In this document: positions 352 to 22,047 of the stretch, one piece after another
How the letters are laid out: each line of letters begins with the position of its first letter
Numbering within the stretch: position 1 is the first letter of the stretch
Source: Spirosoma linguale DSM 74
GTDB lineage: Bacteria; Bacteroidota; Bacteroidia; Cytophagales; Spirosomataceae
Reading direction: 5' to 3'
DNA length: 64,000 nucleotides
NCBI GenBank assembly: GCA_000024525.1
Contig: CP001769.1
Coordinates: forward strand, 4,745,001 to 4,809,000
Position numbers and translations under genes: made by a program
The notes under the pieces: model-generated
Databases searched by the model: none
Told to the model about the DNA's origin: nothing
Seen by the model: the letters and a program-made list of their open reading frames with translations, nothing else

Positions 352-373
352 GTCGTACAAAAAAGAAGAAGTA

Positions 374-2248: not shown

Positions 2249-2283
2249 TACCGCGCCAACCTAACACTTTAACCCCTACCCCT

Positions 2284-6210: not shown

Positions 6211-7341
6211 ATGTCTATGCAGGAGTACAGGGATATGGAACCTGAAGAATTGGCTCTCGATTCGTCTTTTCAACGCTGGCAGTTGAGCCACGACCCCACG
6301 GCCAATTCGCTCTGGGAAGCGTGGCTGGCCCAGAATCCGGACAAAACCGAGCTGGTCGACAAAGCGGCTTCACTGCTGATCTCCCTGCACACTACCTACA
6401 GCGAACACATTGCCGAACGGGTACCCATTTCGGAACACGAGGTTCAGGAAGAAATCAGCCGTCTGCATATGGCCCTGGAAGACCGGGAAGTACCCATTAT
6501 AGCAGTATCCTGGTTTCGGTCGTGGCCCGTTCGCTATGGCGTGGCGGCCAGTGTGCTGGTGTTGCTCGGTCTGTTTGGCTGGTCGCAACTCCGCCCGTCG
6601 GCAAATAAAACGCCGGAAACCTACACCGAACTGGTAGCGCTGGCACCTGAGCCACTTTCTGAAATAAGCAACAGCTCCGATAAACCTTTACAAGTCAACC
6701 TCCCCGACAAAAGTACGATCACCTTGTATCCGAAAAGCCGGGTGAGTTACGACAAGCAGTTCGCCGGTACCAGGCGGGAGATCTATCTGTCGGGAAAAGG
6801 CTTTTTTGAGGTTGTTAAAAATCCGGCAAAGCCGTTTTACGTCTACGCTAACGGACTGGTGACGAAAGTGCTGGGCACCAGCTTCACAGTGCAGGCGTAT
6901 GAAGGCGCGAAGCAGATGAAAGTCGTTGTCCGGACCGGCAAAGTGGCCGTTTTCACCCAAAAGCAGGTGGCGGAGCAGCCCCGAAAAGAAACATATAAGC
7001 TCGACGGCATTGTGCTGACGCCCAATCAGCAGATCGTCTTTTCAACGGAGAAAACGCAGATAAAAAAGAGCCTGGTCGACAATCCGGTTTTGCTGGAGCA
7101 GGCTCCTCAGAAGCAGCTTTTCACCTTCAAACGCACGCCCATTGCCGATGTGTTCGCTACCCTTGAGCAGTCGTACGGTGTACCTATCGCTTTCGATAAA
7201 GACCTGATGCGGGCGTGTTACCTGACCGCATCCTTCACCGACGAACCGCTTTTTGAAAAACTTGACCTGATTTGCCGAACCATCAATGCCACGTATAAAC
7301 AGGTAGATGGCACTATCCAGATCAGTAGTAACGGCTGTTAA
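6211..7341 (+). CDS. FecR-type anti-sigma factor
   Basis: A 376-residue membrane protein. A cytoplasmic region (1-107) leads into one helix (about 108-127, RYGVAASVLVLLGLFGW). Then comes a periplasmic FecR domain (about 155-265, with VNLPDKSTITLYPKSRVSY and LSGKGFFEV) and a C-terminal DUF4974/STN-like domain (about 300-372, FTFKRTPIADVFATLEQSYG). Such proteins hold an ECF sigma factor until a TonB receptor signals substrate binding. The next gene, an STN-bearing SusC, is the expected partner receptor. The usual ECF sigma gene is missing upstream, where an M19 peptidase stands instead; the nearest in the window is at 41678. Confidence 0.9.
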   Translation: MSMQEYRDMEPEELALDSSFQRWQLSHDPTANSLWEAWLAQNPDKTELVDKAASLLISLHTTYSEHIAERVPISEHEVQEEISRLHMALEDREVPIIAVSWFRSWPVRYGVAASVLVLLGLFGWSQLRPSANKTPETYTELVALAPEPLSEISNSSDKPLQVNLPDKSTITLYPKSRVSYDKQFAGTRREIYLSGKGFFEVVKNPAKPFYVYANGLVTKVLGTSFTVQAYEGAKQMKVVVRTGKVAVFTQKQVAEQPRKETYKLDGIVLTPNQQIVFSTEKTQIKKSLVDNPVLLEQAPQKQLFTFKRTPIADVFATLEQSYGVPIAFDKDLMRACYLTASFTDEPLFEKLDLICRTINATYKQVDGTIQISSNGC

Positions 7342-7530: not shown

Positions 7531-7626
7531 CAAAATCGCCCCTCGTGTAGCTCATTACGGTATCCGCAAAAATTGCGGAATGGGACTTTATTGTGCCGAA
7601 TTTTTCACCCGACAAAAGCCAAAACT

Positions 7627-10600
7627 ATGTCAAAACGAGTACTTTATCAAAAGACTTTACAGAAAATCATGCGCATTGGCATCTACCAGGCCTTTCTTTC
7701 TGTCGCTTTTGCCACCTTCTCCTACGCCGTCGAGGTTAGTGGGCAGAAAGTGCTGGAGCAAAAAGTAACCCTTCAACTGTCCAACGCCGATGTTGAAAAA
7801 GTGCTGGACAAAATTGAGACCGTTACGAACGTCAAATTTCTGTACAACCCGCAAATCTTCGGGAACGACACCAAAGCCACCTATAAATTTCGCAACGAGC
7901 CGCTCTCCGATGTTCTGAACAAGATTCTAAACCGGTATCAGGTTACCTACGAAGTACTCCAGGACCGGATCATTCTGAAACGGCTGGAGTCGTTCGAAAT
8001 CAGAGTACCCGTTCAGCAGGAAGCCCCCAAACGGAAAGTAGCGGGTATCGTTCTCGACGAAAACGGGGCCGGATTGCCGGGCGTGAGCGTCGTAATCAAA
8101 GAAGCCCAGAAAGGGACCACCACGGGTGCTGACGGCCGTTTTTCGCTCGATGTCCCAGACGATAACGCTGTACTGGTGTTCAGCTTTGTGGGCTACAAAC
8201 GGCAGGAAGTTACCCTAGGTAACCAAAGCAACCTCTCGGTAACGCTGGCTCCGGAAGCTAGCACCCTCGGCGAAGTGGTGGTAACGGCCCTCGGTATTGC
8301 GCGGGAGAAAAAAGCCCTCGCCTATGCCGTGTCGGAAGTGAAAGGCAGCGAGTTTACACAGGCCCGCGAAAACAACGTGGCCAACGCCCTGACGGGTAAG
8401 ATTGCCGGGGTCAACGCAACGGGTATGGCGACCGGCCCCGGTGGATCAAGCCGCATCATCATCCGGGGTAATGGCTCCCTGAACGGCAACAACCAGCCGC
8501 TGTACGTCATCAACGGGATGCCGATGGATAACAGCACCCCCGGCGGCACACAAGCCGACGGCAACGGCATGAACGTTGACCGGGGTGACGGTATCGGCGG
8601 TATCAACCCCGACGATATCGAGTCCATCAGCGTACTCAAAGGTGGTCCCGCTGCGGCTCTGTACGGAGCCCGTGCCTCCAATGGCGTTATTCTGATTACG
8701 ACAAAAAAAGGCCGCGCTCAGAAAGGTGTCGGCGTAGAGATTAACAGCAATACGACCTTCGAAGACATCGCCGTGATTCCAAATTGGCAGTACGAATACG
8801 GCCAGGGACTCGATGGCAGAAAACCAACCACGGTAACGGAGGCCAAAAGCACCGGCCGACTGTCTTACGGGGCCAAAATGGATGGGCTACCCACAATTCA
8901 GGTGGATGGGCAAATGCACCCCTATTCGCCCCAGAGAAACAATCTGAAAAACTTTTACCGCACAGGCACCAACTACATTAACTCGCTGGCCTTCACCGGC
9001 GGCAGCGAAACGGTAAACTTCCGGCTGGGACTCAACAACACCCAGTCGAACAGCATCGTACCCAACTCGTCGTTCTCCCGGCGGATCGCCAACCTGAACC
9101 TGAACGCGTTTCTGGGCAAGAAACTGAGCGTTGAAACGGTATTCCAGTACAACGTGGAAGAGGGCATCAACCGACCGAAAGTTGGGTATGCCGACTTCAA
9201 CCCGCACTGGGCCACTTACCTAATCGCCAACGTGGTCGACATTCGTAGTCTGGCACCGGGATACGACCCCGTGACGGGCAAAGAGATGGAATGGAACCCT
9301 GTTCCGGCCGCGCCGAACCCGTATTTTGTGATCAACAAGTTTAAGAATAACGACACCAAACACCGGTTTATCAGCCAGGGAAGCATCCGCTACGATATTC
9401 TGGACAACCTGTTCCTCAAAGGCAGCGTCAGCCAGGACTTTTACAGCTTTTCGTCGGAATACGTCCAGCCTACCAATAACGCCTACCAGCCGCTGGGCAC
9501 CTACGAAGCCCGTAAAACAAGCTCCTCGGAAACCAATGGTATGCTGACGCTGAACTACAACACGACCTTTTTTAAGGACCTTACCTTTTCAGCCCTGCTG
9601 GGCGGCAATGTCCAGAAAGCGATCTTCGACCAGACAACCATAGCTGGCAGTGAATTTACGGTACCGTATTTCTACAGCTACACCAACCTCGCGACATCGA
9701 CCACAACGCCAACCTACCTGAAAAGCGCCATCAATTCGGTGTTTGGCTCGGCCGATTTCGGGTATAAAAACGTCGCTTATCTGACGCTGTCGGGTCGGCA
9801 GGACTGGTTCTCGGTGCTGAACCCGAAGAGTAACCACATCTTCTACCCATCTGTGGGCGGCTCGTTCATTCTGTCTGATGCGTTCCAGTTGCCCAAGGCG
9901 GTGAGCTTTGCGAAGTTGCGGGCGTCGTGGGCGCAGGTGGGTGGCGCTACGGTCAACGCCTATCAGATTTACCAGTACTATTCCATGCAGCAGGGCGGTC
10001 ACAACGGTCGGCCGGTGCAGGTTTTATCGTCCTCGCAGGTACCCAACCCCGACCTGAAACCGCTGACCTCGACTACGTACGAGGGGGGTATTGAAGCCAA
10101 GTTCCTGAACAACCGGCTAGGTATCGACCTCACGCTCTACAACCGCAAAACCACGGACGACATCGTGACGACGAACATCGCCCTGTCGTCGGGCTACACC
10201 TCGGCGCTGTTGAACGTGGGTGCGTTGAGTAACAAAGGCGTTGAGCTGCTACTGACTGGCACGCCCGTCAGCAAAGGGCCTTTCTCCTGGGATGTTAGCT
10301 ACAACATGGCCTACAATAAGAGCAAGATCGAACAGCTGGCCGCAGGCATCACCGGTATTGATGTTGGTGCGGGCGTAGGCGGTGGTCTGGTTCGGAACGT
10401 ACTCAACCGGCCTTACGGCACCGTTTGGGGCTACAACAAGAAGACCGACGCCAACGGCAATGTGGTCTTTAACACAGCCAGCGGGTATGCGCTTCGGGGC
10501 GATTTGCAGGAAATCGGGCAGGGCACGCCCCCACTCACGATGGGGATCACCAACAACTTCCGATATAAGAACTTCTCGCTGAACATCCTGGTCGACGGTA

Positions 10601-11055
10601 AATTTGGCAGCATCGTTTACTCGAACCTATACCAGTATGCCTACCGCTTTGGTCTGCCGCAGGAAACCCTGCCCGGCCGCGAAACCGGCATCACCGTCAC
10701 GGGCGTAACCCCCGAAGGCAATCCGTACAGCAAAACATGGAGCAAGGAAGAGGTCGATACGTACTATGACAACGACAAGAACTACACCGCCATGTTCATG
10801 TTCAACAACGATTTCGTGAAGCTGCGTCAAGTGATCCTCAGCTACAATCTGCCCGTTGCCAAACTGCCCTTCCTGAAGCTACAATCGGCCACGATCTCGT
10901 TTGTAGCGCGTAACCTGGCTATTCTCTACAAGGATAAAAAGAATCAGTATTTCGATCCGGAGTCGGGCTATACGAGCACCAACGCACAGGGGCTGGAGGC
11001 TTTCGGCGTACCCAGAACCCGCAGCCTGGGTGTGAACTTAATGGTGAAATTCTAA
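7627..11055 (+). CDS. SusC/RagA TonB-dependent receptor with N-terminal STN signalling domain
   Basis: About 1142 residues, starting at the ATG at 7627 (MSKRVLYQKTLQKIMRIG). Order: signal segment (about 15-40), STN domain (about 45-115, VTLQLSNADVEKVLDKIE), carboxypeptidase-regulatory-like domain (about 138-215, VAGIVLDENGAGLPGVSVV), plug (SusC signature near LGEVVVTALG, then YVINGMPMDN and VLKGGPAAALYGARASNG) and a beta-barrel ending in aromatic GVNLMVKF. It would import an oligosaccharide or similar nutrient across the outer membrane with TonB energy and signal through the FecR encoded just upstream. It is the only one of the three SusC proteins here with an STN domain. SusD follows after 18 bases. 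The substrate is unknown; the downstream genes suggest a sugar or amino sugar. Confidence 0.95.
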   Translation: MSKRVLYQKTLQKIMRIGIYQAFLSVAFATFSYAVEVSGQKVLEQKVTLQLSNADVEKVLDKIETVTNVKFLYNPQIFGNDTKATYKFRNEPLSDVLNKILNRYQVTYEVLQDRIILKRLESFEIRVPVQQEAPKRKVAGIVLDENGAGLPGVSVVIKEAQKGTTTGADGRFSLDVPDDNAVLVFSFVGYKRQEVTLGNQSNLSVTLAPEASTLGEVVVTALGIAREKKALAYAVSEVKGSEFTQARENNVANALTGKIAGVNATGMATGPGGSSRIIIRGNGSLNGNNQPLYVINGMPMDNSTPGGTQADGNGMNVDRGDGIGGINPDDIESISVLKGGPAAALYGARASNGVILITTKKGRAQKGVGVEINSNTTFEDIAVIPNWQYEYGQGLDGRKPTTVTEAKSTGRLSYGAKMDGLPTIQVDGQMHPYSPQRNNLKNFYRTGTNYINSLAFTGGSETVNFRLGLNNTQSNSIVPNSSFSRRIANLNLNAFLGKKLSVETVFQYNVEEGINRPKVGYADFNPHWATYLIANVVDIRSLAPGYDPVTGKEMEWNPVPAAPNPYFVINKFKNNDTKHRFISQGSIRYDILDNLFLKGSVSQDFYSFSSEYVQPTNNAYQPLGTYEARKTSSSETNGMLTLNYNTTFFKDLTFSALLGGNVQKAIFDQTTIAGSEFTVPYFYSYTNLATSTTTPTYLKSAINSVFGSADFGYKNVAYLTLSGRQDWFSVLNPKSNHIFYPSVGGSFILSDAFQLPKAVSFAKLRASWAQVGGATVNAYQIYQYYSMQQGGHNGRPVQVLSSSQVPNPDLKPLTSTTYEGGIEAKFLNNRLGIDLTLYNRKTTDDIVTTNIALSSGYTSALLNVGALSNKGVELLLTGTPVSKGPFSWDVSYNMAYNKSKIEQLAAGITGIDVGAGVGGGLVRNVLNRPYGTVWGYNKKTDANGNVVFNTASGYALRGDLQEIGQGTPPLTMGITNNFRYKNFSLNILVDGKFGSIVYSNLYQYAYRFGLPQETLPGRETGITVTGVTPEGNPYSKTWSKEEVDTYYDNDKNYTAMFMFNNDFVKLRQVILSYNLPVAKLPFLKLQSATISFVARNLAILYKDKKNQYFDPESGYTSTNAQGLEAFGVPRTRSLGVNLMVKF

Positions 11056-11073: not shown

Positions 11074-12636
11074 ATGAAGAATCTGATCCAAAAAATACTG
11101 ATAGTGGCCCCGATGCTTCTGCTCCTGTCTGCCTGCGACAAGGGCTTCGAGGAGATGAACGTGGACCCGAACAAATACTCGGAAGTGGTACCTGGCTACC
11201 TCTTTACCCGAGCCCAACTGGACGGCGTGAGCACCAACTTCACGGGGGCTGCTTACCTGACCATCGGCCAGTCGATGCAGCAGTTTGCCACCTACAAAGA
11301 GGTACCGGCAGCGGGCGACAAGTACTTCAATTACAGCTACTCGACCGGCAACTGGAATGCCTACGCCGGTACCGGAGCCGGGCAAGGGGCCATCGTATCT
11401 ATCCGACAGGTGATCGACGCCGTATCGACCAGCCCGCTGGATGTCAATAAGCTCTCGGCAGCGCGCATCTGGAAAGCGTATATTTTCCACCGCCTGACGG
11501 ACATGTACGGCGACATCCCCTACTTCGACGCGGGCAAGGCGCTTTCGGACAAGAACTACAGCCCCAAATACGACACCCAGCAGGCAATCTATGCCGATCT
11601 GCTGAAAGAACTGGACGAGTCCATCAAGGCGTTCGACGCCAGCAAAGCCACGTTCGGCACCGCCGACCTAATGTATGGTGGCGACATTACCAAGTGGAAA
11701 AAATTCGCTTATTCGCTGATGCTCCGTCTGGGTATGCGCCTGACCGAAGTGGACCCGGCGATGGCGAAAACCTGGAGCGAGAAAGCCATTGCCGGTGGGA
11801 TTATTCTGGACGATGCCGACCGCGCTGTGATTGCCTACGTCGATGGGTCGCAGACGGCCAGCCGGAATTTCATCGCCAGCGGCCTCATCAGCACGGATTA
11901 TGTGACGCCCGGTGGCGATAATGTGGAAGGTGGCAAGTACGCCAAAACATTTATCGACTACCTGAAAAACACCAAAGACCCGCGCCTGAACGTGATCTCG
12001 ATTGTGTGGACCACCACCGACGGCAAAACGTTCACTGCTGACACGACAACGGCCCTGCAAAGCGGCATGCCCAACGCGGCTTACAACAACCTGCCTGCTA
12101 ATTTCAACTCGTTCTCGGAACCCAACCCGAACACACTCCTGAAATACAGTACTCCGCTGATCGTGTTTGGCAATGCCGAAACGAACCTGTTGCTGGCCGA
12201 AGCATCGGTGCGTGGCTGGGCTAGTGGCACCACGGCGGCTACGGCCTATGCCAATGCGGTGAAAGGCGGTATGCGCCAATGGTCGCTATTCGGTACAGGC
12301 GGCACGATCTCGGAGGCACGGATCAACGCGTATCTAGCCGCCAATCCGTACAAAGAAACGGGGACGGTAGCGCAGCAGATGGAGCAGATTCAGACGCAGA
12401 AATGGGTGTCGCTGTTCCTGGAAGATGAATACGAAATCTTCTCCAACTGGCGTCGGACGGGGTATCCGGTGCTCACCCCGACGAACTATCCGGGCAACCT
12501 CACCGGCGGCAAAATCCCGACCCGCTTCGTGATTCCCGACTCGGAAGAGACGTATAACAAAACCAACTTCATCGAGGCCCGGACGCGTCAGGGCGGCACA
12601 AACACGCTCTCCAGCGTGGTGTGGTGGGATAAGTAG
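11074..12636 (+). CDS. SusD/RagB-family nutrient-binding lipoprotein
   Basis: A 520-residue outer-membrane lipoprotein. The signal peptide ends in lipobox LLSAC (Cys about residue 21), followed by the family start FEEMNVDPNKYSEV and the helical repeat blocks RIWKAYIFHRLTDMYGDIPY and YGGDITKWKKFAYSLMLRL. The C-terminal end SVVWWDK is typical of the SusD-like branch PF12771. It caps the SusC at 7627 and helps capture the ligand at the cell surface. A palindrome at 12661-12779 separates it from the RidA gene, which probably belongs to the same locus. Confidence 0.94.
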   Translation: MKNLIQKILIVAPMLLLLSACDKGFEEMNVDPNKYSEVVPGYLFTRAQLDGVSTNFTGAAYLTIGQSMQQFATYKEVPAAGDKYFNYSYSTGNWNAYAGTGAGQGAIVSIRQVIDAVSTSPLDVNKLSAARIWKAYIFHRLTDMYGDIPYFDAGKALSDKNYSPKYDTQQAIYADLLKELDESIKAFDASKATFGTADLMYGGDITKWKKFAYSLMLRLGMRLTEVDPAMAKTWSEKAIAGGIILDDADRAVIAYVDGSQTASRNFIASGLISTDYVTPGGDNVEGGKYAKTFIDYLKNTKDPRLNVISIVWTTTDGKTFTADTTTALQSGMPNAAYNNLPANFNSFSEPNPNTLLKYSTPLIVFGNAETNLLLAEASVRGWASGTTAATAYANAVKGGMRQWSLFGTGGTISEARINAYLAANPYKETGTVAQQMEQIQTQKWVSLFLEDEYEIFSNWRRTGYPVLTPTNYPGNLTGGKIPTRFVIPDSEETYNKTNFIEARTRQGGTNTLSSVVWWDK

Positions 12637-12881: not shown

Positions 12882-13340
12882 ATGAAAGCACAACGCCGTT
12901 CCATCTTAAAACGCCTTTTTGCATCCGTTGCCGGAATGACCGGACTGGGTTCGTCAACCCGCTCCCTGGCTGCATCAACGGCTGAAAAAGAAGCGACCAG
13001 TATAGTATCTCAGGATGATATTCCCTTATATTCAGGATCGACGAAGCTGGGCAATCTGGTCTTTGTGTCCGGGGCCGGGGCTCACTTTGAGGGCGATATC
13101 CGGTCGCATACAGATCATGTGCTCAAAGAGATCGAAAAAGAGCTGATTAAAGCAGGCTCGTCGATGGACAAAGTCTTGAAAGTGAACGTCCTGCTACACG
13201 ACCTTAAAGACTACAAAGCCATGAACGAGGTGTACAAAGGCCGGTTCGGCAAAAACCCACCGGTACGTACAACGGTAGCCGTACATGCCGGTGTTCCCGG
13301 CAATTCGTGGGTAGAAATTGACTGTGTCGCCTATGTGTAG
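12882..13340 (+). CDS. Exported RidA/YjgF-family enamine/imine deaminase, copy A
   Basis: A 152-residue protein made of a Tat signal (QRRSILKRLF at residues 4-13, then a hydrophobic stretch to about 30) and a complete RidA domain. RidA enzymes hydrolyse reactive enamines and imines released by PLP-dependent dehydratases. The key arginine is R129 in PVRTTVAV, followed by the acidic WVEIDCVAYV end. Ordinary RidA proteins are about 130 residues, cytoplasmic and without leader, so export is the notable feature. A second copy is at 18757, also next to a PLP enzyme. The pairing suggests that it clears the intermediate made by the PLP enzyme in the same compartment. Export is predicted from the RR motif only. 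Confidence 0.9.
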   Translation: MKAQRRSILKRLFASVAGMTGLGSSTRSLAASTAEKEATSIVSQDDIPLYSGSTKLGNLVFVSGAGAHFEGDIRSHTDHVLKEIEKELIKAGSSMDKVLKVNVLLHDLKDYKAMNEVYKGRFGKNPPVRTTVAVHAGVPGNSWVEIDCVAYV

Positions 13341-13346
13341 TGCTTT

Positions 13347-13402
13347 GTACCAAACAGCTTCTAGCTGTTTGTGGCTAAAAACAGCCAGAAGCTGTTTGGT
13401 AC
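13347..13402. repeat. Inverted repeat with TTTGTACC ends
   Basis: Arms GTACCAAACAGCTTCTAGCT (from 13347) and CCAGAAGCTGTTTGGTAC (ending 13402) pair over 23 bp with one mismatch. It resembles 4648-4702 in its outer ten bases. The presumed TTG start of the next gene lies inside the right arm. Confidence 0.85.
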
Positions 13403-14124
13403 GAAAAAAACTCACCGTCGTTACTTTAGCCATTTTACTCTCCTTAAGACTCATGCCCGTCAACGCACAAACCAACGTTTCAACGCAGTTAATCGTCCAC
13501 AAAACAGATGATTTTCAGGTAAACGGAAACGGCGACAACAGCGCCTGGAACAAAACAGACTGGGTACCCATCACGATTCAGGAGTCGGCCGGTCGAAAGC
13601 TAGGCACGAAGACCAAAACGCTGTATTCATCCACCGGCATGTATTTCCTCTTTCAGTGCGAGGACGAAACGTTGACCGCTACGATACAGGAGGACTTTGG
13701 GGCGTTGTACAACGAAGATGTGGTGGAAGTGTTTCTCTGGCCCGATGAATCCGTACCTATCTATTTTGAATACGAACTGTCGCCCCTGAATTACGAACTC
13801 CCCATTCTGGTACCGAATCTTAACGGCAAATTCATGGGCTGGAAACCCTGGCATTACACGGGTAAATCGAAAGTGCAGCACGCAACCAGCATTCAGGGTG
13901 GCGAGAAGGTGAGCAAGGCAGCTATCAAGGGCTGGACAGCCGAGTTTTTCATTCCCTATACGTTATTAAACCCCCTCGTTCAGGCCCCACCTACTTCGGG
14001 CACCCGCTGGCGTGGTAACCTGTACCGCATTGATTACGACAAGGGGTATCAAACCTGGTCGTGGCAAAAAACGAGTGGCAGCTTTCACGAATTCCACAAG
14101 TTCGGAACGCTGATTTTTGAGTAA
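13396..14124 (+). CDS. Secreted CBM9-like carbohydrate-binding domain protein
   Basis: About 242 residues. The frame is open further upstream, but a TTG at 13396 gives a clean Sec signal (VRKKLTVVTLAILLSLRLMP, cut after NAQ); an ATG at 13444 would destroy it, and 13318 would begin inside ridA. The mature part resembles the family 9 carbohydrate-binding fold of sugar-binding and xylanase-associated proteins: FQVNGNGDNSAWNKTDWVP, LYSSTGMYFLFQCEDE, EDVVEVFLWPDE, YFEYELSPLN and a late GTRWRGNLYRID. No catalytic domain is present. Lying between RidA and the PLP enzyme, it hints that the substrate is a carbohydrate. Start assignment is uncertain. Confidence 0.75.
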   Translation: MVRKKLTVVTLAILLSLRLMPVNAQTNVSTQLIVHKTDDFQVNGNGDNSAWNKTDWVPITIQESAGRKLGTKTKTLYSSTGMYFLFQCEDETLTATIQEDFGALYNEDVVEVFLWPDESVPIYFEYELSPLNYELPILVPNLNGKFMGWKPWHYTGKSKVQHATSIQGGEKVSKAAIKGWTAEFFIPYTLLNPLVQAPPTSGTRWRGNLYRIDYDKGYQTWSWQKTSGSFHEFHKFGTLIFE

Positions 14125-14154
14125 GAACGATCACCGATACAAACCAACTTTATC

Positions 14155-15378
14155 ATGCTCAATAGAAGATCCCTCATCAAACGACTGTCGGCAATGCCCC
14201 TGCTGGGTGGCCTGATCGGTAGCGTAACACCGCTTGAATCAGTGCTGGCAGCTCCGGCGAAAGCGGCTTCACGCAACGTCCTGAAAGAACTTGGACTGCG
14301 TACGTTTATCAATGCGGCCGGTACGTATACCGCCATGACGGGCTCGCTGATGGAAGATGACGTGGTCGAAACGATCAACGCATCATCCAAAGAGTTTGTC
14401 ATGCTGGACGATGTGCAGACCAAAGTCGGCGAGAAGATTGCCGCCCTGACTCATGCCGAATCCGCTGTCGTCACGGCGGGCTGTTTCTCGGCTATGACGC
14501 TCGGACTGGCTGGTGTGCTGACGGGCATGGACCAGAAAAAAGTGGAGCTGCTGCCCCATCTGGAAGGCACCGACATGAAATCGGAAGTGATTGCTCAGAA
14601 AGCGCACAACATCGGCTACAACCACGCCCTGACCAATACGGGTTGTAAAATTGTAGTGGTCGAAACGCTGGAAGAGGCCGAAAAAGCCATCAACAGCAAA
14701 ACGGCTATGCTGTGGTTCCTGAACATCCAATCCGACAAGGGCCAGATTCAGCATCAGGAATGGGTGAATCTTGGTAAGAAACACAACATCCCGACCATGA
14801 TCGATATTGCCGCCGATGTGCCGCCGGTCGAAAACCTCTGGAAGTTCAACGACATGGGCTTCGACCTGGTTTGCGTATCGGGCGGGAAGGCCATGCGGGG
14901 GCCACAAAGCGCGGGTTTGCTGATGGGCAAAAAACAGTACATCGCTGCCGCCCGGCTCAGCATGCCGCCCCGTGGCTCCACCATCGGCCGGGGCATGAAG
15001 GTGAATAAAGAAGAGATTTTGGGCATGTACGTCGCCCTCGACAAGTTCATCGCAACGGACCACAAGAAAGAATGGAAGATGCTGGAAGACCGGGTGGCCG
15101 TTATTTCCAGTGCCATTAAAGGTATTAACGGCATCAACGTCGAAACCTACGCCCCGCCCCTCGGCAACCACACGCCCACCATGCGCGTCACCTGGGAAAC
15201 GGGCAAAGTCAACCTGACAACCAAAACGTTACAGGAAAACCTGCGCAACGGCAACCCGTCCATTGAAGTGGTCGGCGAAGCCAACGGCATCAGCATGACG
15301 ACCTGGATGCTCAAACCCGGTCAGGACAAGATTGTCGCGGCAAGGCTGAAAGAAGAATTTACCAAAGCGGCTGTGTAA
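14155..15378 (+). CDS. Tat-exported SelA/DgaE-like PLP-dependent lyase, copy A
   Basis: A 407-residue fold-type I PLP enzyme of the group that includes selenocysteine synthase SelA and D-glucosaminate-6-phosphate ammonia-lyase DgaE. The N-terminus has a twin-arginine signal (NRRSLIKRLSAMP, then a hydrophobic stretch to about 32). The domain starts at LGLRTFINAAGTYTAMTGS. ESAVVTAGCFSAMTLGLAG binds the cofactor phosphate, PTMIDIAADVPP holds the Asp that contacts the PLP ring, and K245 in SGGKAMRGPQSAG is the Schiff-base lysine. Family knowledge points to ammonia elimination from a 2-amino-2-deoxy aldonic acid, giving a 2-keto-3-deoxy acid. Tat export would let it leave the cell folded with PLP bound. 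The paralogue is at 19362. The true substrate is not known. Confidence 0.88.
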   Translation: MLNRRSLIKRLSAMPLLGGLIGSVTPLESVLAAPAKAASRNVLKELGLRTFINAAGTYTAMTGSLMEDDVVETINASSKEFVMLDDVQTKVGEKIAALTHAESAVVTAGCFSAMTLGLAGVLTGMDQKKVELLPHLEGTDMKSEVIAQKAHNIGYNHALTNTGCKIVVVETLEEAEKAINSKTAMLWFLNIQSDKGQIQHQEWVNLGKKHNIPTMIDIAADVPPVENLWKFNDMGFDLVCVSGGKAMRGPQSAGLLMGKKQYIAAARLSMPPRGSTIGRGMKVNKEEILGMYVALDKFIATDHKKEWKMLEDRVAVISSAIKGINGINVETYAPPLGNHTPTMRVTWETGKVNLTTKTLQENLRNGNPSIEVVGEANGISMTTWMLKPGQDKIVAARLKEEFTKAAV

Positions 15379-15386
15379 GCCATGTA

Positions 15387-15473
15387 CCGCGGTTCTTTAG
15401 CCCGCACAGCCGGTAGGCTAATGTGTAATTGACAAATTATTAACCTACGGCTGTGCGGACTAAAGAACCGCGG
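15387..15473. repeat. Inverted repeat between PLP and amidohydrolase genes (copy A)
   Basis: Arms CCGCGGTTCTTTAGCCCGCA (from 15387) and GCGGACTAAAGAACCGCGG (ending 15473) pair over about 30 bp with one mismatch and one bulge. It differs entirely from the repeat at the equivalent site in copy B (20588-20746). Confidence 0.85.
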
Positions 15474-15491
15474 CAATCAATATCCTAAACC

Positions 15492-16736
15492 ATGAAATTT
15501 AAATACCTATTCCTAACCCTTTTCTCTTTTCTGACGGTTTCGGTCTGGGCGCAGCCGTATACCCTGCTTATCAAAGGCGGGCATTTGATCGACCCGAAAA
15601 ACAACATCGACGCCGTTATGGACGTCGCCATCACCGATGGCAAGGTGACGCAGGTGGCGAAATCCATTGACGCCAAACAAGCCCGGCAGGTGGTCGATGC
15701 GAAAGGCATGTACGTAACGCCCGGCCTGATCGATATTCACGGGCACGTGTTTTACGGTACCGAACCCGACCATTACCTGAGCAACGGACTAGTGGCCGTC
15801 TCGCCGGACGGGTTTACCTTTCGGGTGGGTGTAACGACCATCGTCGATGCGGGGGGCGCGGGCTGGAAATCGTTCGAGACGTTCAAGAAAAACATCATCT
15901 TTACGTCCAAAACGCGGGTGCTGTCGTTCCTGAACATCGTGGGCGAAGGCATGCGCGGGGGCGTTTTCGAGCAGGACACCACCGACATGGACCCGAAGAT
16001 GGCAGCTAAAGTGGCGCTCGAAAATAAGAACGACGTCGTTGGCTTCAAGGTGGCTCACTTTCAGGGTCCAAGCTGGGCACCCGTCGACCATGCCGTGGCG
16101 GCTGGCAAACTGGCCAACATGCCCGTTATCATTGACTTTGGCGGCAACAACCCACCCCTCTCGCTCGAGGAACTGTTCATGAAGCACCTTCGTCCGGGCG
16201 ACATTTTCACCCATGCCTACACCCTGCTGGAGGGCAATGTTCGCGAAACGATTGTGGATGAAGCGACCAAAACCGTGAAACCGTTTGCCTGGGAAGCCCG
16301 CAAAAAGGGTATCGTATTCGATGTGGGTTATGGTGGGGCGAGTTTCAACTACTCACAGGCCATCCCGGCGGTAAAAGCCAAATTTTACCCGACCACCATC
16401 AGCACCGATTTACACACGGGCAGCATGAACGGCTCCATGAAAGACATGCTCAGCATCATGTCCAAATTCGTGGTTATGGGCGAAGACATTCCCAGTGTGA
16501 TTCGGGCCAGCACCTGGACCCCGGCGCAGGTCATCAAACGCGAAAATCTGGGACATTTATCCGTGGGCGCCATTGCCGACGTCGCCATTTTCTCGATGCG
16601 GCAGGGCACGTTCGGCTTTTACGACAAAACCGGCTACAAGATGATGGGTAAGCAGAAGTTCGAATGCGAAATGACCATCAAAGGCGGCAAGGTCGTGTAT
16701 GATTTGAACGGGATTGGCATTGCCAGTTCGAAATGA
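15492..16736 (+). CDS. Secreted COG3964-type amidohydrolase/deacetylase, copy A
   Basis: A 414-residue amidohydrolase-superfamily enzyme with a Sec signal (KYLFLTLFSFLTVSVWAQ, residues 4-21). The metal site is visible: HGH at H83/H85, K186 (VGFKVAH, expected carboxylated lysine), H241 (IFTHAY) and D306 (STDLHTG). At the place where many relatives have a histidine (DVGHG) it has tyrosine, Y280 in FDVGYGG; the paralogue has the same change. As I recall, two COG3964 members hydrolyse acetylated hydroxy acids such as acetyl-(R)-mandelate rather than dihydroorotate. Relatives often neighbour DgaE-like enzymes, as here. A role removing an acyl group from the substrate of the PLP enzyme is inferred. 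Confidence 0.87.
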   Translation: MKFKYLFLTLFSFLTVSVWAQPYTLLIKGGHLIDPKNNIDAVMDVAITDGKVTQVAKSIDAKQARQVVDAKGMYVTPGLIDIHGHVFYGTEPDHYLSNGLVAVSPDGFTFRVGVTTIVDAGGAGWKSFETFKKNIIFTSKTRVLSFLNIVGEGMRGGVFEQDTTDMDPKMAAKVALENKNDVVGFKVAHFQGPSWAPVDHAVAAGKLANMPVIIDFGGNNPPLSLEELFMKHLRPGDIFTHAYTLLEGNVRETIVDEATKTVKPFAWEARKKGIVFDVGYGGASFNYSQAIPAVKAKFYPTTISTDLHTGSMNGSMKDMLSIMSKFVVMGEDIPSVIRASTWTPAQVIKRENLGHLSVGAIADVAIFSMRQGTFGFYDKTGYKMMGKQKFECEMTIKGGKVVYDLNGIGIASSK

Positions 16737-16752
16737 TTTACCACCATTATTT

Positions 16753-16898
16753 ACCACCCCCAACCCCCTCCTTGAAAAAAGGAGGGGGCTATGCCGAAGG
16801 ACATCCCTTTCTTGGCTCTACCTGTAGAAAGAGGGGGCAAGGACAAGGATATCCCGTTACAAAGCCCCCTCCTGTTTTAGGAGGGGGTTGGGGGTGGT
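16753..16898. repeat. Inverted repeat of the CCCCCTCC/GGAGGGGG type
   Basis: The outer arms ACCACCCCCAACCCCCTCCT (from 16753) and AGGAGGGGGTTGGGGGTGGT (ending 16898) are complementary. Each arm also contains its own hairpin: 16764-16788 with an A-rich loop and 16865-16887 with a TTTTA loop. The middle is a poorly conserved spacer. The element at 20588-20746 is the same type. Confidence 0.85.
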
Positions 16899-16929
16899 CC
16901 TTTTAACCCTTTTCTCTACTCTCAACCCA

Positions 16930-18735
16930 ATGACAAAAATTTACATCAAAAGCATTGCCCTCGCCCTGCTCACGTTTGTCGGATTTACGCAGCGGGCGAC
17001 GAAAAACGGATTACCGATTCAGACAGAAGCCAACGGCGGGCTCTTTCTGCCCGAAGGGTTCGAAGCAACGGTGGTGGTCGACAGCCTGCCCGGTCGGGCG
17101 CGGCATCTGGCGGTCAACGAGAACGGCGACATTTACGTAAAAGCGCGTTTCGCCCGGAATAAAGATGAGTCGGTGATTGCCCTGCGGGATACGAACGGCG
17201 ATGGCCGGGCCGACATCATCAAAACCTTTGGCGGTATCGGTAAAGAGCGGGCGTATGGTACAGCTGTGCGGATCTACAAAGGTTACCTCTACTTCAGTTC
17301 GGAGATGAACGTGTTTCGCTATAAACTCAAGCCCGGCGAACTGATCCCGAGTAGTCCGATGGAAACGATCCTGACCGACGACCATGAGCACGGGATGCAC
17401 GAACACATCGCCAAACCCATTACGTTCGACAACGACGGCCATATGTACGTAGCTTACGGTGCGCCTTCCAACGGGTGCCAGCCTAAGAACCGGACGCCCA
17501 ACATGGCCGGTATCGACCCATGCCCCATGCTGGAAGACCACGGCGGCATCTGGCAGTTCGACGCCAACAAACCCAACCAGACCCAGCGGGATGGCCGTCG
17601 GTATGCTACCGGATTACGGTCTGTAGTGGGCATGGACTGGAACCCGACCAACAATAGTTTGTTTGCCCTCCAGCATGGCCGCGACGATTTGCTGATGCTG
17701 TGGGCCGAAAAATACAACCCCTGGCAGAGTGCCGTTTTCCCCGCCGAAGAGCTTTTCCAGGTGAAGGACGGCATGGACGGCGGCTGGCCCTATTGCTATT
17801 ACGACCAGATCCAGGGCAAGAAACTGCTCAACCCCGAGTACGGTGGCGATGGTAAACTGGTGGGCCGCTGTGGCGACTACGAAAAACCACTGATCGGTTT
17901 TCCGGCACACTGGGCTCCCAATGACATTCTGTTCTACCAGGGCAACAGCGCATCGAACGGCTTCCCGGAGCATTACAAAAATGGTGCCTTCATTGCCTTT
18001 CACGGCTCGACCAACCGGGCACCGTATCCGCAGGCGGGGTATTTTATCGGCTTCGTACCGGCCAAAGGCAATGGTTTATCGAGCAGTTGGGAAGTCTTTG
18101 CCGATGGCTTTGCCGGTGTCGACCCGATTGTCAATGTCAGCGACGCACATTATCGTCCGATGGGTGTGGCCATGGGGCCCGATGGTTCGCTGTATTTCGC
18201 CGAAACCGAGAAAGGCAAAATCTGGAAGGTTACCTACAAAGGCAACAAACAGAACTTCGGTGCGGCACAACTGGCCCAGATGGAGAAGCGCAAGACCCTG
18301 TCGAATATCCGCGACCCACATATCATCACCGACAATCTGGACCGGGATCGTCCCGTGGCGGGAGGAAAAGTCTACGGTGTTTACTGCTCGGCCTGCCACC
18401 AGCGGAACGGCCTGGGCGACTCGCAACGGTTTCCGCCCCTGGCCGGTTCGGAATGGGTAACGGGCGATAAAAAGAAACTCATTACGGTGCTTTTGAAAGG
18501 GCTGGAAGGGCCCATTGAGGTGAAAGGCCAGTCGTACAACAACGCCATGCCCCAGCACAGTTTTTTGAAAGATGAAGAGCTTTCGGAAGTATTGACCCAC
18601 ATCCGGCAGAACTTTGGCAACACGGCCGATGGCATCAGCGCGGCCGAGGTCAATGAAGTTCGGCTGGCGATCAACCAGCAGGAGCGTAAAGAGACTACCC
18701 CAAAACGCAAAAACAGTACAAAAGCCAAACGATAA
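16930..18735 (+). CDS. Periplasmic PQQ sugar dehydrogenase (sorbosone/glucose type) with C-terminal cytochrome c
   Basis: About 601 residues from the ATG at 16930. A Sec signal (KIYIKSIALALLTFVGFTQ) is followed by a six-bladed soluble glucose/sorbosone dehydrogenase propeller: GLFLPEGFEATVVVDSLPG, RHLAVNENGDIYVKARF, YATGLRSVVGMDWNP and RPMGVAMGPDGSLYFAETEKG. A cytochrome c domain has heme motif C486-SAC-H490 and a likely Met ligand in NAMPQHSFLKDEELS. Such fusions oxidise an aldose or aldehyde in the periplasm and pass electrons to their own heme. It ends copy A of the RidA-PLP-amidohydrolase set, 21 bases before RidA copy B. It could make the aldonic acid used by the neighbours. The C-terminal domain resembles that of the 45280 gene. 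Confidence 0.87.
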   Translation: MTKIYIKSIALALLTFVGFTQRATKNGLPIQTEANGGLFLPEGFEATVVVDSLPGRARHLAVNENGDIYVKARFARNKDESVIALRDTNGDGRADIIKTFGGIGKERAYGTAVRIYKGYLYFSSEMNVFRYKLKPGELIPSSPMETILTDDHEHGMHEHIAKPITFDNDGHMYVAYGAPSNGCQPKNRTPNMAGIDPCPMLEDHGGIWQFDANKPNQTQRDGRRYATGLRSVVGMDWNPTNNSLFALQHGRDDLLMLWAEKYNPWQSAVFPAEELFQVKDGMDGGWPYCYYDQIQGKKLLNPEYGGDGKLVGRCGDYEKPLIGFPAHWAPNDILFYQGNSASNGFPEHYKNGAFIAFHGSTNRAPYPQAGYFIGFVPAKGNGLSSSWEVFADGFAGVDPIVNVSDAHYRPMGVAMGPDGSLYFAETEKGKIWKVTYKGNKQNFGAAQLAQMEKRKTLSNIRDPHIITDNLDRDRPVAGGKVYGVYCSACHQRNGLGDSQRFPPLAGSEWVTGDKKKLITVLLKGLEGPIEVKGQSYNNAMPQHSFLKDEELSEVLTHIRQNFGNTADGISAAEVNEVRLAINQQERKETTPKRKNSTKAKR

Positions 18736-18756
18736 CAACTAGTAATTCAATTCATC

Positions 18757-19227
18757 ATGGAAACACAACGCCGTTCTATTCTTAAACGTCTTTTTGCCTC
18801 TGCCGCCGGTGTCGTTGGCCTGGGTGCTGCCAGCAAAGCCATTGCCGCCCCCGTAGCCGAAGCTGCTGCCGAAAAAGAAGTCTTCAACGTGGTCATGCAG
18901 GACGATGTGCCGTTGTTCTCCGGCTCCACCAAAATGGGCAATCTAGTGTTTGTGGCGGGCAAAGGCTACCATAAAGAGGGCGACATTAAAGTACATACCG
19001 ACGAAGTACTCAAGGAACTTGAGCGGGAGCTGATCAAAGCCGGTTCGTCGATGGAAAAAGTCCTGAAAGTAAGCGTGTTTCTACACGACCTCAACGATTA
19101 TAAAGGCATGAACGAGGTCTACAAAGGCAGGTTCGGCAAGAAGCCCCCCGTGCGTACAACGGTAGCCGTGTACGGCGGTGTACCTGGCGACTCGCTGGTC
19201 GAAATGGATTGCATTGCGTATATCTAG
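18757..19227 (+). CDS. Exported RidA/YjgF-family enamine/imine deaminase, copy B
   Basis: A 156-residue paralogue of the protein at 12882 with the same Tat motif (TQRRSILKRLFASAAG) and a RidA domain with arginine R133 (PVRTTVAV) and C-terminal LVEMDCIAYI. The two copies are similar throughout, for example in LIKAGSSMEKVLKV and MNEVYKGRFGK, but clearly not identical, so the duplication is old rather than recent. The gene follows the dehydrogenase-cytochrome after 21 bases and probably shares its transcript. Its partner PLP enzyme is 134 bases downstream, beyond a long inverted repeat. Confidence 0.9.
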   Translation: METQRRSILKRLFASAAGVVGLGAASKAIAAPVAEAAAEKEVFNVVMQDDVPLFSGSTKMGNLVFVAGKGYHKEGDIKVHTDEVLKELERELIKAGSSMEKVLKVSVFLHDLNDYKGMNEVYKGRFGKKPPVRTTVAVYGGVPGDSLVEMDCIAYI

Positions 19228-19234
19228 CACAAAA

Positions 19235-19338
19235 ATGAATTGACTAATTGGTTTGTACCTACGGGTTTCAACCCGTTTTTATCAGCAGTCTGAATTACGG
19301 GCTGAAGCCCGTAGGTACAACTTAATCAGTCAATTCAT
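19235..19338. repeat. Long inverted repeat with inner TTTGTACC
   Basis: The outer parts ATGAATTGACTAATT (from 19235) and AATCAGTCAATTCAT (ending 19338) continue into TTTGTACCTACGGGTTTCAA and its complement GCTGAAGCCCGTAGGTACAA. The arms are about 42 bp with several mismatches. Inside the arms ACGGGTTTCAACCCGT and ACGGGCTGAAGCCCGT form separate small hairpins. Confidence 0.85.
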
Positions 19339-19361
19339 ATAAACTCTTAACCGTTCCTTCT

Positions 19362-20582
19362 ATGTTAAGCAGACGAAAACTTATCAAACGCCTGTCGAGC
19401 GTCCCCATTTTAGGCGGGCTGGTCGGCGGCCTTCCGCTGTCGCTTGAGGCCGAAGCAAAGCCCGCACCCAAACGTGATTTATTCAAGGAGTTTGGCATTC
19501 GCACCTTCATCAATGCGGCTGGCACGCTTACCTACATGACCGGCTCGCTCATGCACGACGAGGTGCTGGACGCCATCAACTACGGCGCGAAAGAATTCTG
19601 TTTGCTCGATGAGATTCAGGATAAAGTTGGGGCGAAGATTGCGCAGATGGTACATTCCGAAGCGGCCGTTGTTACGTCCGGGGCATTCTCCGGCATGACG
19701 CTCGGGCTGGCGGGCATCCTGACCGGTATGGATCAGAAGAAAGTAGAAATGCTGCCGCATCTGGCCGGTACCGGCATGAAAACGGAAGTGATCTGCCAGA
19801 AAGCCCACGACATTGTGTATAACCACGCCCTGACCAATACCGGTTGCAAAATAGTAGTGGTAGAAACGGCGGAAGATGTCGAGAAAGCCATCAACGAGAA
19901 AACGGCGCTCATGCACTTCCTGCACATCGAAGCCGACAAAGGCAAAATCATGCACGAAGAGTGGGTGGCGCTGGGCAAAAAGCACAACATTCCCACATCC
20001 ATCGATATTGCCGCCGACGTGCCGCCGGTCGAAAACCTCTGGAAATTCAACGACATGGGCTTCCATTTCGTGGTCATCTCGGGTGGCAAGGCCATGCGGG
20101 GGCCACAAAGTGCGGGTCTGCTGATGGGCAAAAAGAGCATCATTGAGGCCGCTCGTCTGCACATGCCGCCCCGTGGCTTCAACATTGGCCGGGGAATGAA
20201 GGTCAACAAAGAGGAAATTTTTGGTATGTACGTCGCGCTAGAGCGGTTCATCAACGAAGACCATGACAAGGTGTGGAGGCTATGGGAAGAGAACACGGCC
20301 TACGTCGAGAACACGGTAAAGACCGTCAACGGGGTAACAACCAGCGTGCACGTACCGCCCCTGGGTAACCACACGCCCACGCTGCGCATCTCGTGGGACC
20401 CCGCCAGACTCCGCATTACGGGTAAAGACCTACAGGAAGCCCTCCGCAAAGGCGATCCCTCCATCGAAGTAGGGGGCAGCGGACCCAGCAACATCGGCGT
20501 AACGGTCTGGATGATGAAACCCGGCCAGGAGAAAATCGTAGCCCGGCGTATTAAAGAAGAACTGACCAAAGCAGCTGTTTAA
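19362..20582 (+). CDS. Tat-exported SelA/DgaE-like PLP-dependent lyase, copy B
   Basis: A 406-residue paralogue of the protein at 14155, roughly two-thirds identical by eye. Signal: SRRKLIKRLSSVPILGG. Domain blocks are FGIRTFINAAGTLTYMTGS, EAAVVTSGAFSGMTLGLAG, IDIAADVPPVENLWKFND and K243 in SGGKAMRGPQSAG as the PLP lysine. The best-conserved differences lie in a short stretch near residue 185 (HFLHIEADKGKIMHEEW versus WFLNIQSDKGQIQHQEW in copy A) and in the C-terminal third, which may reflect a different substrate. It is expected to work with the neighbouring RidA and amidohydrolase of copy B in the periplasm. Substrate inferred only from family, not shown. Confidence 0.88.
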   Translation: MLSRRKLIKRLSSVPILGGLVGGLPLSLEAEAKPAPKRDLFKEFGIRTFINAAGTLTYMTGSLMHDEVLDAINYGAKEFCLLDEIQDKVGAKIAQMVHSEAAVVTSGAFSGMTLGLAGILTGMDQKKVEMLPHLAGTGMKTEVICQKAHDIVYNHALTNTGCKIVVVETAEDVEKAINEKTALMHFLHIEADKGKIMHEEWVALGKKHNIPTSIDIAADVPPVENLWKFNDMGFHFVVISGGKAMRGPQSAGLLMGKKSIIEAARLHMPPRGFNIGRGMKVNKEEIFGMYVALERFINEDHDKVWRLWEENTAYVENTVKTVNGVTTSVHVPPLGNHTPTLRISWDPARLRITGKDLQEALRKGDPSIEVGGSGPSNIGVTVWMMKPGQEKIVARRIKEELTKAAV

Positions 20583-20587
20583 CAGTC

Positions 20588-20746
20588 ACCCTACCCCTAG
20601 CCCCTCCCCTAAAAAAAGGGAGGGGAACGAACCGATTATTGTTTAACTTTCCCTATACGGCGGTCATTATGCTGACCAATGAAAAGATAAAATAAGCCGG
20701 TTTTTTAGCCCCTCCCCTTTTTTCAAGGGGAGGGGTTGGGGTGGGG
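20588..20746. repeat. Inverted repeat of the CCCCTCCC/GGGAGGGG type
   Basis: The left part CCCTACCCCTAGCCCCTCCC (from 20588) pairs with GGGGAGGGGTTGGGGTGGGG (ending 20746). As at 16753, each half also folds on itself, around A-rich and T-rich loops. About 80 bases of unremarkable sequence lie between. Confidence 0.82.
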
Positions 20747-20763
20747 TCAAAGCCCCCTCAACC

Positions 20764-22047
20764 ATGAAAAAGATCTCCCTACTTCTATTCGTCCTCTGTT
20801 GTACCTTAGGCAAACTGGCCCTGGCCCAGCCGTATAGCATCGTCATCAAAGGCGGGCACGTGATCGACCCGAAGAATAATATCGACGGCATTATGGATGT
20901 CGCCATTGCCGATGGGAAGATTGCGCAGGTGGCCAAATCCATCGACGCCAAAGGAGCCCTTCAGGTGGTCAATGCCAAGGGGATGTACGTAACGCCCGGT
21001 ATCATCGACATGCACACGCACGTCTTTTTCGGGACTAACCTCGACCAGACGTACAGCAACGGCCCCAACGCCCTGCCCCCCGATGGGTTTACGTTTCGTA
21101 ATGGCGTGACGACCATCGTCGATGCGGGCTGTTCGGGCTGGCGGGATTTCGAGACGTTCAAGAAACAGACCATCGACCTGTCGCAGACGCGAGTGCTGGC
21201 CCTGCTCAACATTGTCGGGAGCGGGATGCGCGGGGGACAGTTTGAGCAGAACCTCGACGACATGGACGCCCAGAAAACGGCCGAGATGGCGAAGAAGTAC
21301 CCTGACTACGTAGTGGGTGTCAAGCTCGCGCACTACAACGGTTACAACTGGACACCCACCGACCGCGCCGTAGAAGCCGGGAAGTTGGCCAACGTACCGG
21401 TTATGATCGACTTCGGCGGCAGTACCCCTACCCTGTCCATTGAAGACCTGTTTTTGAAGCGGCTTCGTCCGGGCGACATTTTCACCCATTGTTTCGGGCA
21501 GTTGAAAACCCGCGAGCCCATTCTGGACGTAACGACCAACAAGGTAAAGCCCTTTGTATGGGAAGCGCAGAAAAAGGGCATTATCTTCGATGTAGGCTAC
21601 GGCGGCATCAGCTTCGCCTTTTCGCAGGCTATCCCGGCCATTAAAAGCGGCTTTTACCCGAACACCATCAGCACCGACATTCATACCGGCAGCATGAACA
21701 ACGCCATGAAAGACATGCTCAATGTGATGTCGAAATTTATGGCCATGGGTATGAACCTGCAAAGCGTTATCAAAGCCAGCACCTGGGCTCCCGCACAGGC
21801 CATCAAACGCCCCGAACTGGGGCATCTGTCGGTGGGTTCAGTGGCCGATGTAGCCATCCTGAACCTGCACGAAGGCAAATTTGAAGTGCGGGATACAGGC
21901 TACTTCGGTTTCTTCGATTACACCGGCCACAAGATCGAAGGCAAACAGAAACTGGGCTGCGAAATGACCATCCGCAAAGGCAAAATCGTGTATGACCTTA
22001 ACGGCATCGCCAACCCGGTTGTTGTCACGCAGCAGCCAAGGTCATAA
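20764..22047 (+). CDS. Secreted COG3964-type amidohydrolase/deacetylase, copy B
   Basis: A 427-residue paralogue of the protein at 15492, with Sec signal KKISLLLFVLCCTLGKLALA. Metal-site residues: HTH at H84/H86, K187 (VGVKLAH), H242 (IFTHCF) and D305 (STDIHTG). Y279 in FDVGYGG again replaces the usual histidine. Compared with copy A it carries a short insertion near the C-terminus (KFEVRDTGYFGFF). It closes copy B of the exported RidA-PLP-amidohydrolase set. A bidirectional inverted repeat follows directly, separating it from the convergent glycosyltransferase gene. The reaction is inferred to be deacylation; substrate unknown. Confidence 0.87.
   Translation: MKKISLLLFVLCCTLGKLALAQPYSIVIKGGHVIDPKNNIDGIMDVAIADGKIAQVAKSIDAKGALQVVNAKGMYVTPGIIDMHTHVFFGTNLDQTYSNGPNALPPDGFTFRNGVTTIVDAGCSGWRDFETFKKQTIDLSQTRVLALLNIVGSGMRGGQFEQNLDDMDAQKTAEMAKKYPDYVVGVKLAHYNGYNWTPTDRAVEAGKLANVPVMIDFGGSTPTLSIEDLFLKRLRPGDIFTHCFGQLKTREPILDVTTNKVKPFVWEAQKKGIIFDVGYGGISFAFSQAIPAIKSGFYPNTISTDIHTGSMNNAMKDMLNVMSKFMAMGMNLQSVIKASTWAPAQAIKRPELGHLSVGSVADVAILNLHEGKFEVRDTGYFGFFDYTGHKIEGKQKLGCEMTIRKGKIVYDLNGIANPVVVTQQPRS

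Follow-up and report, generated by a model that had tools for sequence, protein, structure and literature searches.

Twin-arginine leaders on RidA proteins and SelA/DgaE-like enzymes of Spirosoma linguale and its relatives point to a possible amino-sugar route outside the cytoplasm

The question raised by a locus of Spirosoma linguale DSM 74 is whether ammonia can be eliminated from an amino-sugar acid outside the cytoplasm, by an exported pyridoxal phosphate (PLP) enzyme working with an exported RidA protein. The locus lies in a stretch of 64,000 nucleotides (GenBank contig CP001769.1, positions 4,745,001 to 4,809,000 of the forward strand), referred to below as the window. An earlier note on this DNA had described a duplicated module of RidA, SelA/DgaE-like PLP enzyme and amidohydrolase, and six open reading frames (ORFs) forming two such sets were found where the note had placed them. 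The three partners thus stand as members of the module, but the list was incomplete, a conserved sugar-dehydrogenase/cytochrome c partner having been overlooked. The genes are as follows (RR, twin arginine).

12882..13340, + strand: RidA family protein 1 with RR leader (P0001; PF01042, 76.8 bits)
13396..14124, + strand: CBM9-like protein with Sec-type start (P0008; PF06452, 31.4 bits)
14155..15378, + strand: SelA/DgaE-like PLP enzyme 1 with RR leader (P0002; SelA/aminotransferase V family match)
15492..16736, + strand: COG3964-type amidohydrolase/deacetylase 1 with Sec leader (P0003; NF006689, 446.5 bits)
16930..18735, + strand: glucose/sorbosone-dehydrogenase-like propeller fused to cytochrome c, with Sec-type start (P0007; PF07995, PF00034)
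18757..19227, + strand: RidA family protein 2 with RR leader (P0004; PF01042, 69.3 bits)
19362..20582, + strand: SelA/DgaE-like PLP enzyme 2 with RR leader (P0005; SelA/aminotransferase V family match)
20764..22047, + strand: COG3964-type amidohydrolase/deacetylase 2 with Sec leader (P0006; NF006689, 464.1 bits)

The CBM9-like gene sits between RidA 1 and PLP enzyme 1, and the propeller/cytochrome c gene between the two sets. The former probably starts at the TTG at 13396 (its ORF opens at 13318, and GTA, which is no start codon, stands at 13399) and the latter probably at the ATG at 16930 (ORF opening at 16888).

With a probability of roughly 0.55, N-acetylated amino sugars are broken down oxidatively outside the cytoplasm by the products of this locus, a route of which we infer the substrate, the reaction order and the localisation. 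On this reading, a group of soil and water bacteria appears to export a complete set of sugar-degrading proteins, the ammonia-removing enzyme and its RidA helper among them; the nearest counterpart that has been studied is cytoplasmic.

The relatives compared were 75 Bacteroidota loci, the closest by similarity from the best 80 of at least 497 confirmed matches, and the locus counts therefore describe that clade. Their labelled ORFs comprise 71 RidA, 89 PLP-enzyme, 90 amidohydrolase and 64 dehydrogenase ORFs. The co-occurrence that the earlier note had proposed to look for in other genomes was found: among the 67 loci of at least 15 kb, a RidA with a twin-arginine translocation (Tat) leader lies within up to 9 kb in 60, an amidohydrolase is present in 65, and both accompany the PLP enzyme in 59. 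Of the 67, 61 have a dehydrogenase/cytochrome c gene, which belongs to one of two types. The S. linguale genome of 8.49 Mb has nine RidA-family matches and two PLP-enzyme matches, both of the latter at the module, yet 60/67 loci pair a Tat-RidA with the PLP enzyme, indicating that the association is beyond chance. Eight loci lack the full trio: L066 has neither partner, L067 has RidA only, and L075, L078, L079, L085, L088 and L092 have the amidohydrolase and, in place of a Tat-RidA, a Rid protein that belongs to another branch and has a Sec-like start. The best Pfam match of that branch is PF14588, the PF01042 cut-off being passed as well in the two cases tested (L078 and L088). A different export signal on a different Rid branch speaks for a need for an exported Rid function. 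In samples of 118 genomes each, the only genome of the phylum sample to match at E 1e-40 or better was that of the window, and eight of the order sample matched at E 1e-100 or better, showing that the module is patchily distributed.

Leaders were judged by eye and with a heuristic pattern script. Both RidA proteins begin with QRRSILKRLFA, PLP enzyme 1 with NRRSLIKRLSA and PLP enzyme 2 with SRRKLIKRLSS, and the amidohydrolases of both sets have Sec-type leaders, in agreement with the earlier description. The RR motifs are coupled to a hydrophobic stretch, as in Tat substrates, and the genome has a single TatC gene. The strict RR pattern was found in 88 of 89 PLP-enzyme ORFs, the exception (L062) also reading SRRKLIKRM, and in 54 of 71 RidA ORFs, most of the others having RR with residues outside the pattern (e.g. 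RRST). In the alignment, twin arginine is present in 68/70 leader-bearing RidA ORFs, a count that leaves aside one leaderless 114-aa fragment (L061), and Arg-His in L024 and L027. The heuristic gave a Sec-type start for 87/90 amidohydrolases and 62/64 dehydrogenases. The conservation of the leaders across genera and two phyla, together with the Sec-like Rid stand-in at six loci, supports the view that RidA and its PLP partner are both exported. The earlier claim that ammonia is eliminated outside the cytoplasm gains support to that extent, as a prediction from leaders.

Both RidA proteins passed the PF01042 cut-off (27.3 bits) and missed that of TIGR00004 (70.2 and 65.0 bits against 106.25). 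Their key residues, Arg129 in copy 1 and Arg133 in copy 2, are intact as claimed; Arg129, presumably the carboxylate-binding arginine, is present in all 71 RidA relatives aligned. Eight of the nine RidA stretches in the genome were inspected: two have RR leaders (those of the module), one has a Sec-like and one a lipoprotein-like start, and exported Rid proteins are therefore not confined to the module locus.

The catalytic lysine of the PLP enzyme is also intact (Lys245 in copy 1, Lys243 in copy 2) and is kept in 91/91 relatives (86/86 short forms and 5/5 long forms). A structure model of copy 2 (mean predicted local distance difference test score 82) matched DGL (7lc0) first among solved structures and Cap15 (8t7j) next. 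The paper on DGL numbers the catalytic lysine Lys-217 (PMC9529869); the lysine of the SGAK stretch has chain index 213 in this analysis. The likeness to SelA/DgaE was upheld, but orthology to DgaE was rejected: the two copies scored 147 and 134.8 bits on one NCBIfam model and 176.9 and 175.6 bits on TIGR01437 (the DgaE family), in both cases below the cut-off, and His-163 and the phosphate arginines of DGL are missing at the aligned positions. The loop that holds His-162 and His-163 in DGL is two residues shorter and free of His in 86/86 short forms; Arg-301, Arg-332 and Arg-346 are absent at the aligned positions in 86/86, and Arg-226 aligns with Lys or Arg. According to the same paper, His-163 protonates the enamine, the H163A mutant stays active but lets the enamine go, the three arginines form the docked phosphate site, and RidA is discussed as an enzyme that breaks down such enamines (PMC9529869). 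By analogy, the exported PLP enzyme may hand its enamine to the dedicated exported RidA. A long SelA-like form of about 530-575 aa with an RR leader occurs alongside the short form at L054, L059, L065, L072 and L080 and in Granulicella (L137:7262-8860).

Both amidohydrolases passed the cut-off of NF006689 (371 bits), which we take to be the COG3964 model, and the module enzyme is inferred to be a deacetylase. The statement that its metal sites are intact did not hold. The window protein retains HxH (83, 85), Lys186, His241 and Asp306, but the strand-5 His of 8je0 and 2ogj, whose metal-ligand roles are assumed here, is Asp215, and across the 90 aligned rows this position holds Asp 85 times and Glu five times; the remaining ligands are kept in 88 to 90 of the 90 rows.

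Matches on plasmids extend the picture beyond Bacteroidota. A total of 470 were listed or counted (234 + 236) and six were opened. On the plasmid of Granulicella tundricola (Acidobacteriota) the order is RraA, SelA-like, RidA, long SelA-like, amidohydrolase, lactonase and BBE oxidase, with RR leaders on the SelA-like protein, RidA, the long SelA-like protein and the lactonase. Its SelA-like protein likewise lacks the His loop, and its amidohydrolase has the same strand-5 Asp. Plasmids of Sinorhizobium B11, Aminobacter SR38 and R. etli CIAT 652 carry leaderless RidA and SelA-like genes amid ABC transporter genes; in the first two an amidohydrolase lies beside them, with His at strand 5. No such cluster was present at the Mesorhizobium and Thermomicrobium plasmid matches opened.

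How old are the two sets? Identity between the copies is 69% for RidA, 66% for the PLP enzyme and 63% for the amidohydrolase. In a tree of 92 PLP-enzyme rows, copy 1 groups with enzymes of Spirosoma, Larkinella and Dyadobacter, and copy 2 belongs to a different clade, which also includes enzymes of Spirosoma, Larkinella, Xanthocytophaga and other genera; the root of this tree is uncertain because DGL forms a very long branch. The module is thus duplicated in the sense that two sets are present, but a recent tandem duplication was ruled out by the separate old clades of the PLP copies, and by their sequences the two sets are old paralogues. Residues specific to each clade lie in the catalytic domain (Tyr58 and Trp187 in copy 1, Leu and His in copy 2), and the two PLP enzymes may therefore have different substrates. 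Rhodocytophaga (L061) likewise has two tandem sets, the first RidA of the pair (L061:4945-5289) being the open 114-aa piece without a leader. In a congener (G180, contig C1:1096136-1096738), a second PLP-enzyme match beside the full copy covers query residues 1-214 only, in a 231-aa frame, possibly a sign that set 2 is decaying.

The genes around the module bear on its substrate. Other features of the window are given below.

338..1378, + strand: 2-keto-3-deoxy-galactonokinase family protein, a possible downstream step
1492..2139, + strand: KDPG/KDPGal aldolase family protein, a possible downstream step
2185..3579, + strand: major facilitator superfamily (MFS) transporter, possible inner-membrane uptake of a keto-deoxy acid
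6211..7341, + strand: FecR-type anti-sigma regulator adjoining the SusC gene
7573..11055, + strand: SusC-type TonB-dependent receptor (P0010; Plug, STN, CarbopepD_reg_2)
11074..12636, + strand: SusD-like lipoprotein (P0009; PF12771, 272.4 bits)
28420..30237, + strand: GH20 beta-N-acetylhexosaminidase, a possible source of amino sugar

The SusC, SusD and FecR genes lie upstream of the module and the whole array is on the + strand. The SusC-type receptor, whose ORF opens with TTG and whose real start is probably further in, probably serves outer-membrane uptake. In the 75 related loci, matches of the glucose/sorbosone dehydrogenase type occur in 60, CBM9-type in 45 and SusC-type in 33; lactonase-type genes occur in 27 and SMP-30-type genes in 16, one representative of each having been confirmed (the lactonase by Pfam). 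RraA-like genes with Sec-like starts were found in nine fetched stretches (L064, L081, L056, L134, L077, L067, L084, L073 and L116), four of them confirmed by Pfam, and their products could possibly carry out aldol cleavage outside the cytoplasm; these genes lie near the module or near another amidohydrolase copy. The dehydrogenase/cytochrome c, the lactonases, the SMP-30-type proteins, the RraA-like aldolases and the GH20 enzyme nearby are the grounds for a sugar-acid substrate. The amino-sugar-acid pathway proposed earlier is accordingly favoured in part and indirectly, by the neighbouring genes, to which the KDPGal-type kinase and aldolase can be added, and by analogy with the ong pathway discussed below, but without the DgaE identity attached to it. 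Two candidate carriers recur close to the module among L018-L092: a sodium/bile-acid-type symporter (17 loci, several genera) and an MFS transporter (16 Dyadobacter loci). A UGT/MGT-type glycosyltransferase-like protein, seen from sequence only, is encoded directly after set 2 (22151-23467, - strand); further downstream, a protein dependent on flavin adenine dinucleotide (FAD) with an RR stretch (RRNFIEQLS, 25570-27420) is paired with another FAD protein at 23796-25583.

The proposed route would begin with oxidation of the sugar at C1 by the exported dehydrogenase with its cytochrome c domain. The lactone would be opened by a lactonase at the related loci that have one, and elsewhere spontaneously or by the amidohydrolase, and the exported amidohydrolase would take off the acyl group. 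The Tat-exported SelA/DgaE-like enzyme would then eliminate water from the free 2-amino-aldonate, and the co-exported RidA would hydrolyse the resulting enamine/imine, giving ammonia and a 2-keto-3-deoxy sugar acid. This acid might be imported and passed to the kinase and aldolase, as in the Spirosoma window, or split outside by an exported RraA-like aldolase in other species. That the entire route, from C1 oxidation through deacetylation and ammonia elimination to enamine hydrolysis by RidA (and, in some species, RraA aldol cleavage), runs outside the cytoplasm in two phyla, and that the PLP enzyme has dropped its enamine-quenching His and depends on exported RidA, is a tentative proposal whose chances we put short of even.

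Several observations weigh against the proposed route. RidA also neighbours the rhizobial enzymes, in which His-His, Arg-301 and Arg-332 are retained, so RidA is not a simple stand-in for His-163, and a rule that RidA occurs only beside enzymes without this His is weakened. A His is found in the wider loop region in 47/86 short forms, and an Arg or Lys stands no more than three columns from the Arg-301 position in 64/86 and from the Arg-346 position in 79/86; identity to DGL in the structural alignment is about 23%, which makes the matching of C-terminal residues uncertain. Two exported Rid proteins elsewhere in the genome (L002 and L006) have no such partners in the stretches inspected, no SelA-like gene being seen among their neighbours by eye (stretches L136 and L135). 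Few relatives have GH20 close to the module (4/75 loci, L069, L070, L071 and L074, and, of 21 genomes, the flanks of the two nearest), making it an occasional neighbour and not a conserved member. The kinase, aldolase and MFS genes of the window were rejected as conserved members, occurring in 0/75 loci and in the flanks of 2/21 genomes, again the two nearest, and the kinase was unmatched in 12/36 genomes. The true partner of the kinase cluster may be a group of genes that lie some 10-15 kb before the first position of the window, where two enolase-superfamily proteins with RR-type leaders are encoded (L093:9603-12430); a pyrroloquinoline quinone (PQQ) dehydrogenase with cytochrome c (L093:18108) adjoins the kinase and aldolase. 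This cluster is possibly an exported sugar-acid dehydratase route of its own. A search for pqqC gave no match, but the control was equally silent.

These upstream genes favour the idea that the two sets serve one neutral sugar-acid pathway together with the Tat-enolases, RidA merely shielding the PLP enzymes from stray enamines. We regard this as very unlikely: the enolases, PQQ dehydrogenase and kinase recur with the module in 2/21 genomes, and RidA, PLP enzyme and amidohydrolase stay together. A module acting on N-acyl D-amino acids or peptide-like amines derived from cell walls or exudates, with deacylation by the amidohydrolase, dehydration of a beta-hydroxy-amino acid by the PLP enzyme, removal of the enamine by RidA and no functional link to the sugar genes nearby, would fit the ABC transporters annotated for peptides in the leaderless R. 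etli cluster and the M19 dipeptidase encoded upstream in the window and near the module in 3/21 genomes; it would also fit passages of the ong paper, in which OngB is closest to D-aminoacylase and OngC is annotated as a D-amino-acid deaminase (PMC9537276). It is nevertheless rather unlikely, the dehydrogenase/cytochrome c, the lactonases and the RraA-like aldolases of other loci pointing to sugar acids.

The PLP enzyme might also be an oxygen-dependent oxidase or decarboxylase of the Cap15 kind, with RidA hydrolysing an imine. The periplasm is exposed to oxygen, and the fit of the model to Cap15 8t7j is comparable to its fit to DGL (TMt 0.87 versus 0.83), a further point against the proposed route; passages on Cap15 describe its substrate as a beta-hydroxy-alpha-amino acid (PMC7497351). 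The sequence score is higher for DGL (111.7 versus 86.7 bits) and both copies score on the DgaE-family TIGR01437, although below its cut-off, so that we consider such a chemistry distinctly unlikely. Finally, the set might bear leaders and yet be cytoplasmic or retained at the membrane, with vestigial RR motifs and the pathway inside. The leaders were judged by pattern alone and two RidA proteins read Arg-His, but leaders are kept in Bacteroidota and Granulicella and none is present in the rhizobial relatives inspected, the stand-in Rid branch carries a different export signal (Sec), and the amidohydrolase and dehydrogenase partners have Sec-like leaders; an internal pathway is therefore hardly credible.

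If the proposed route is true, ammonia elimination and enamine quenching, usually held to be cytoplasmic, sit outside together with the PLP cofactor and RidA, and RidA is tied to one dedicated pathway and place. Amino-sugar nitrogen would be released as ammonia outside the inner membrane and electrons fed to cytochrome c. The earlier note knew of no described pathway in which both RidA and its PLP partner are exported, and this was not contradicted by a literature search, thin on subscription journals, which found no account of such a pair. The search likewise found nothing on RidA with a SelA-like protein and an amidohydrolase, or on the RidA family with twin-arginine, and a term search of a Rid-family survey (PMC4433059) met no export terms.

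Known systems share parts of this arrangement. The rhizobial leaderless clusters resemble the module in having RidA beside a SelA-like enzyme and, in two of three, a COG3964 amidohydrolase; they differ in the absence of leaders, the ABC transporters, another Rid branch, the His-His loop and the strand-5 His of both amidohydrolases. PvdN, a PLP enzyme of pyoverdine maturation, is exported by Tat and is, like the module enzyme, a fold-type I PLP enzyme, but its role is in siderophore maturation, and we know of no RidA partner for it. A literature search on PvdN with Tat found nothing. DGL, the first structural match, shares the catalytic lysine and differs in that its substrate is phosphorylated on uptake by the phosphotransferase system and that it has His-163 and Arg-301/332/346, missing at the aligned positions in the module enzyme, as far as the passages on DGL go (PMC9529869). 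For natronoarchaea, passages of a 2025 genome paper predict a route for glucosaminate that includes both a DGL-like enzyme and the product of a RutC-family gene (PMC12343721). The ong cluster of Pseudoalteromonas prydzensis is alike in encoding RidA, PLP deaminase and deacetylase together. In the passages seen of the paper on it (PMC9537276), OngD (RidA) is essential for growth on N-acetylglucosaminate with the deacetylase OngB and the PLP deaminase OngC, without prior phosphorylation, and the role of OngD is left unexplained; a role is suggested by analogy if the route proposed here is true. The two differ in that ong catabolism is cytoplasmic and receives a substrate oxidised by lytic polysaccharide monooxygenase (LPMO), whereas all three module proteins have export leaders, and in the annotations of OngB and OngC given above; those passages mention no dehydrogenase or cytochrome c (PMC9537276). 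Set beside these systems, the module appears to be a RidA/PLP-lyase/deacetylase pathway that has been relocated to the outside of the cytoplasm and linked with the oxidation of sugars.

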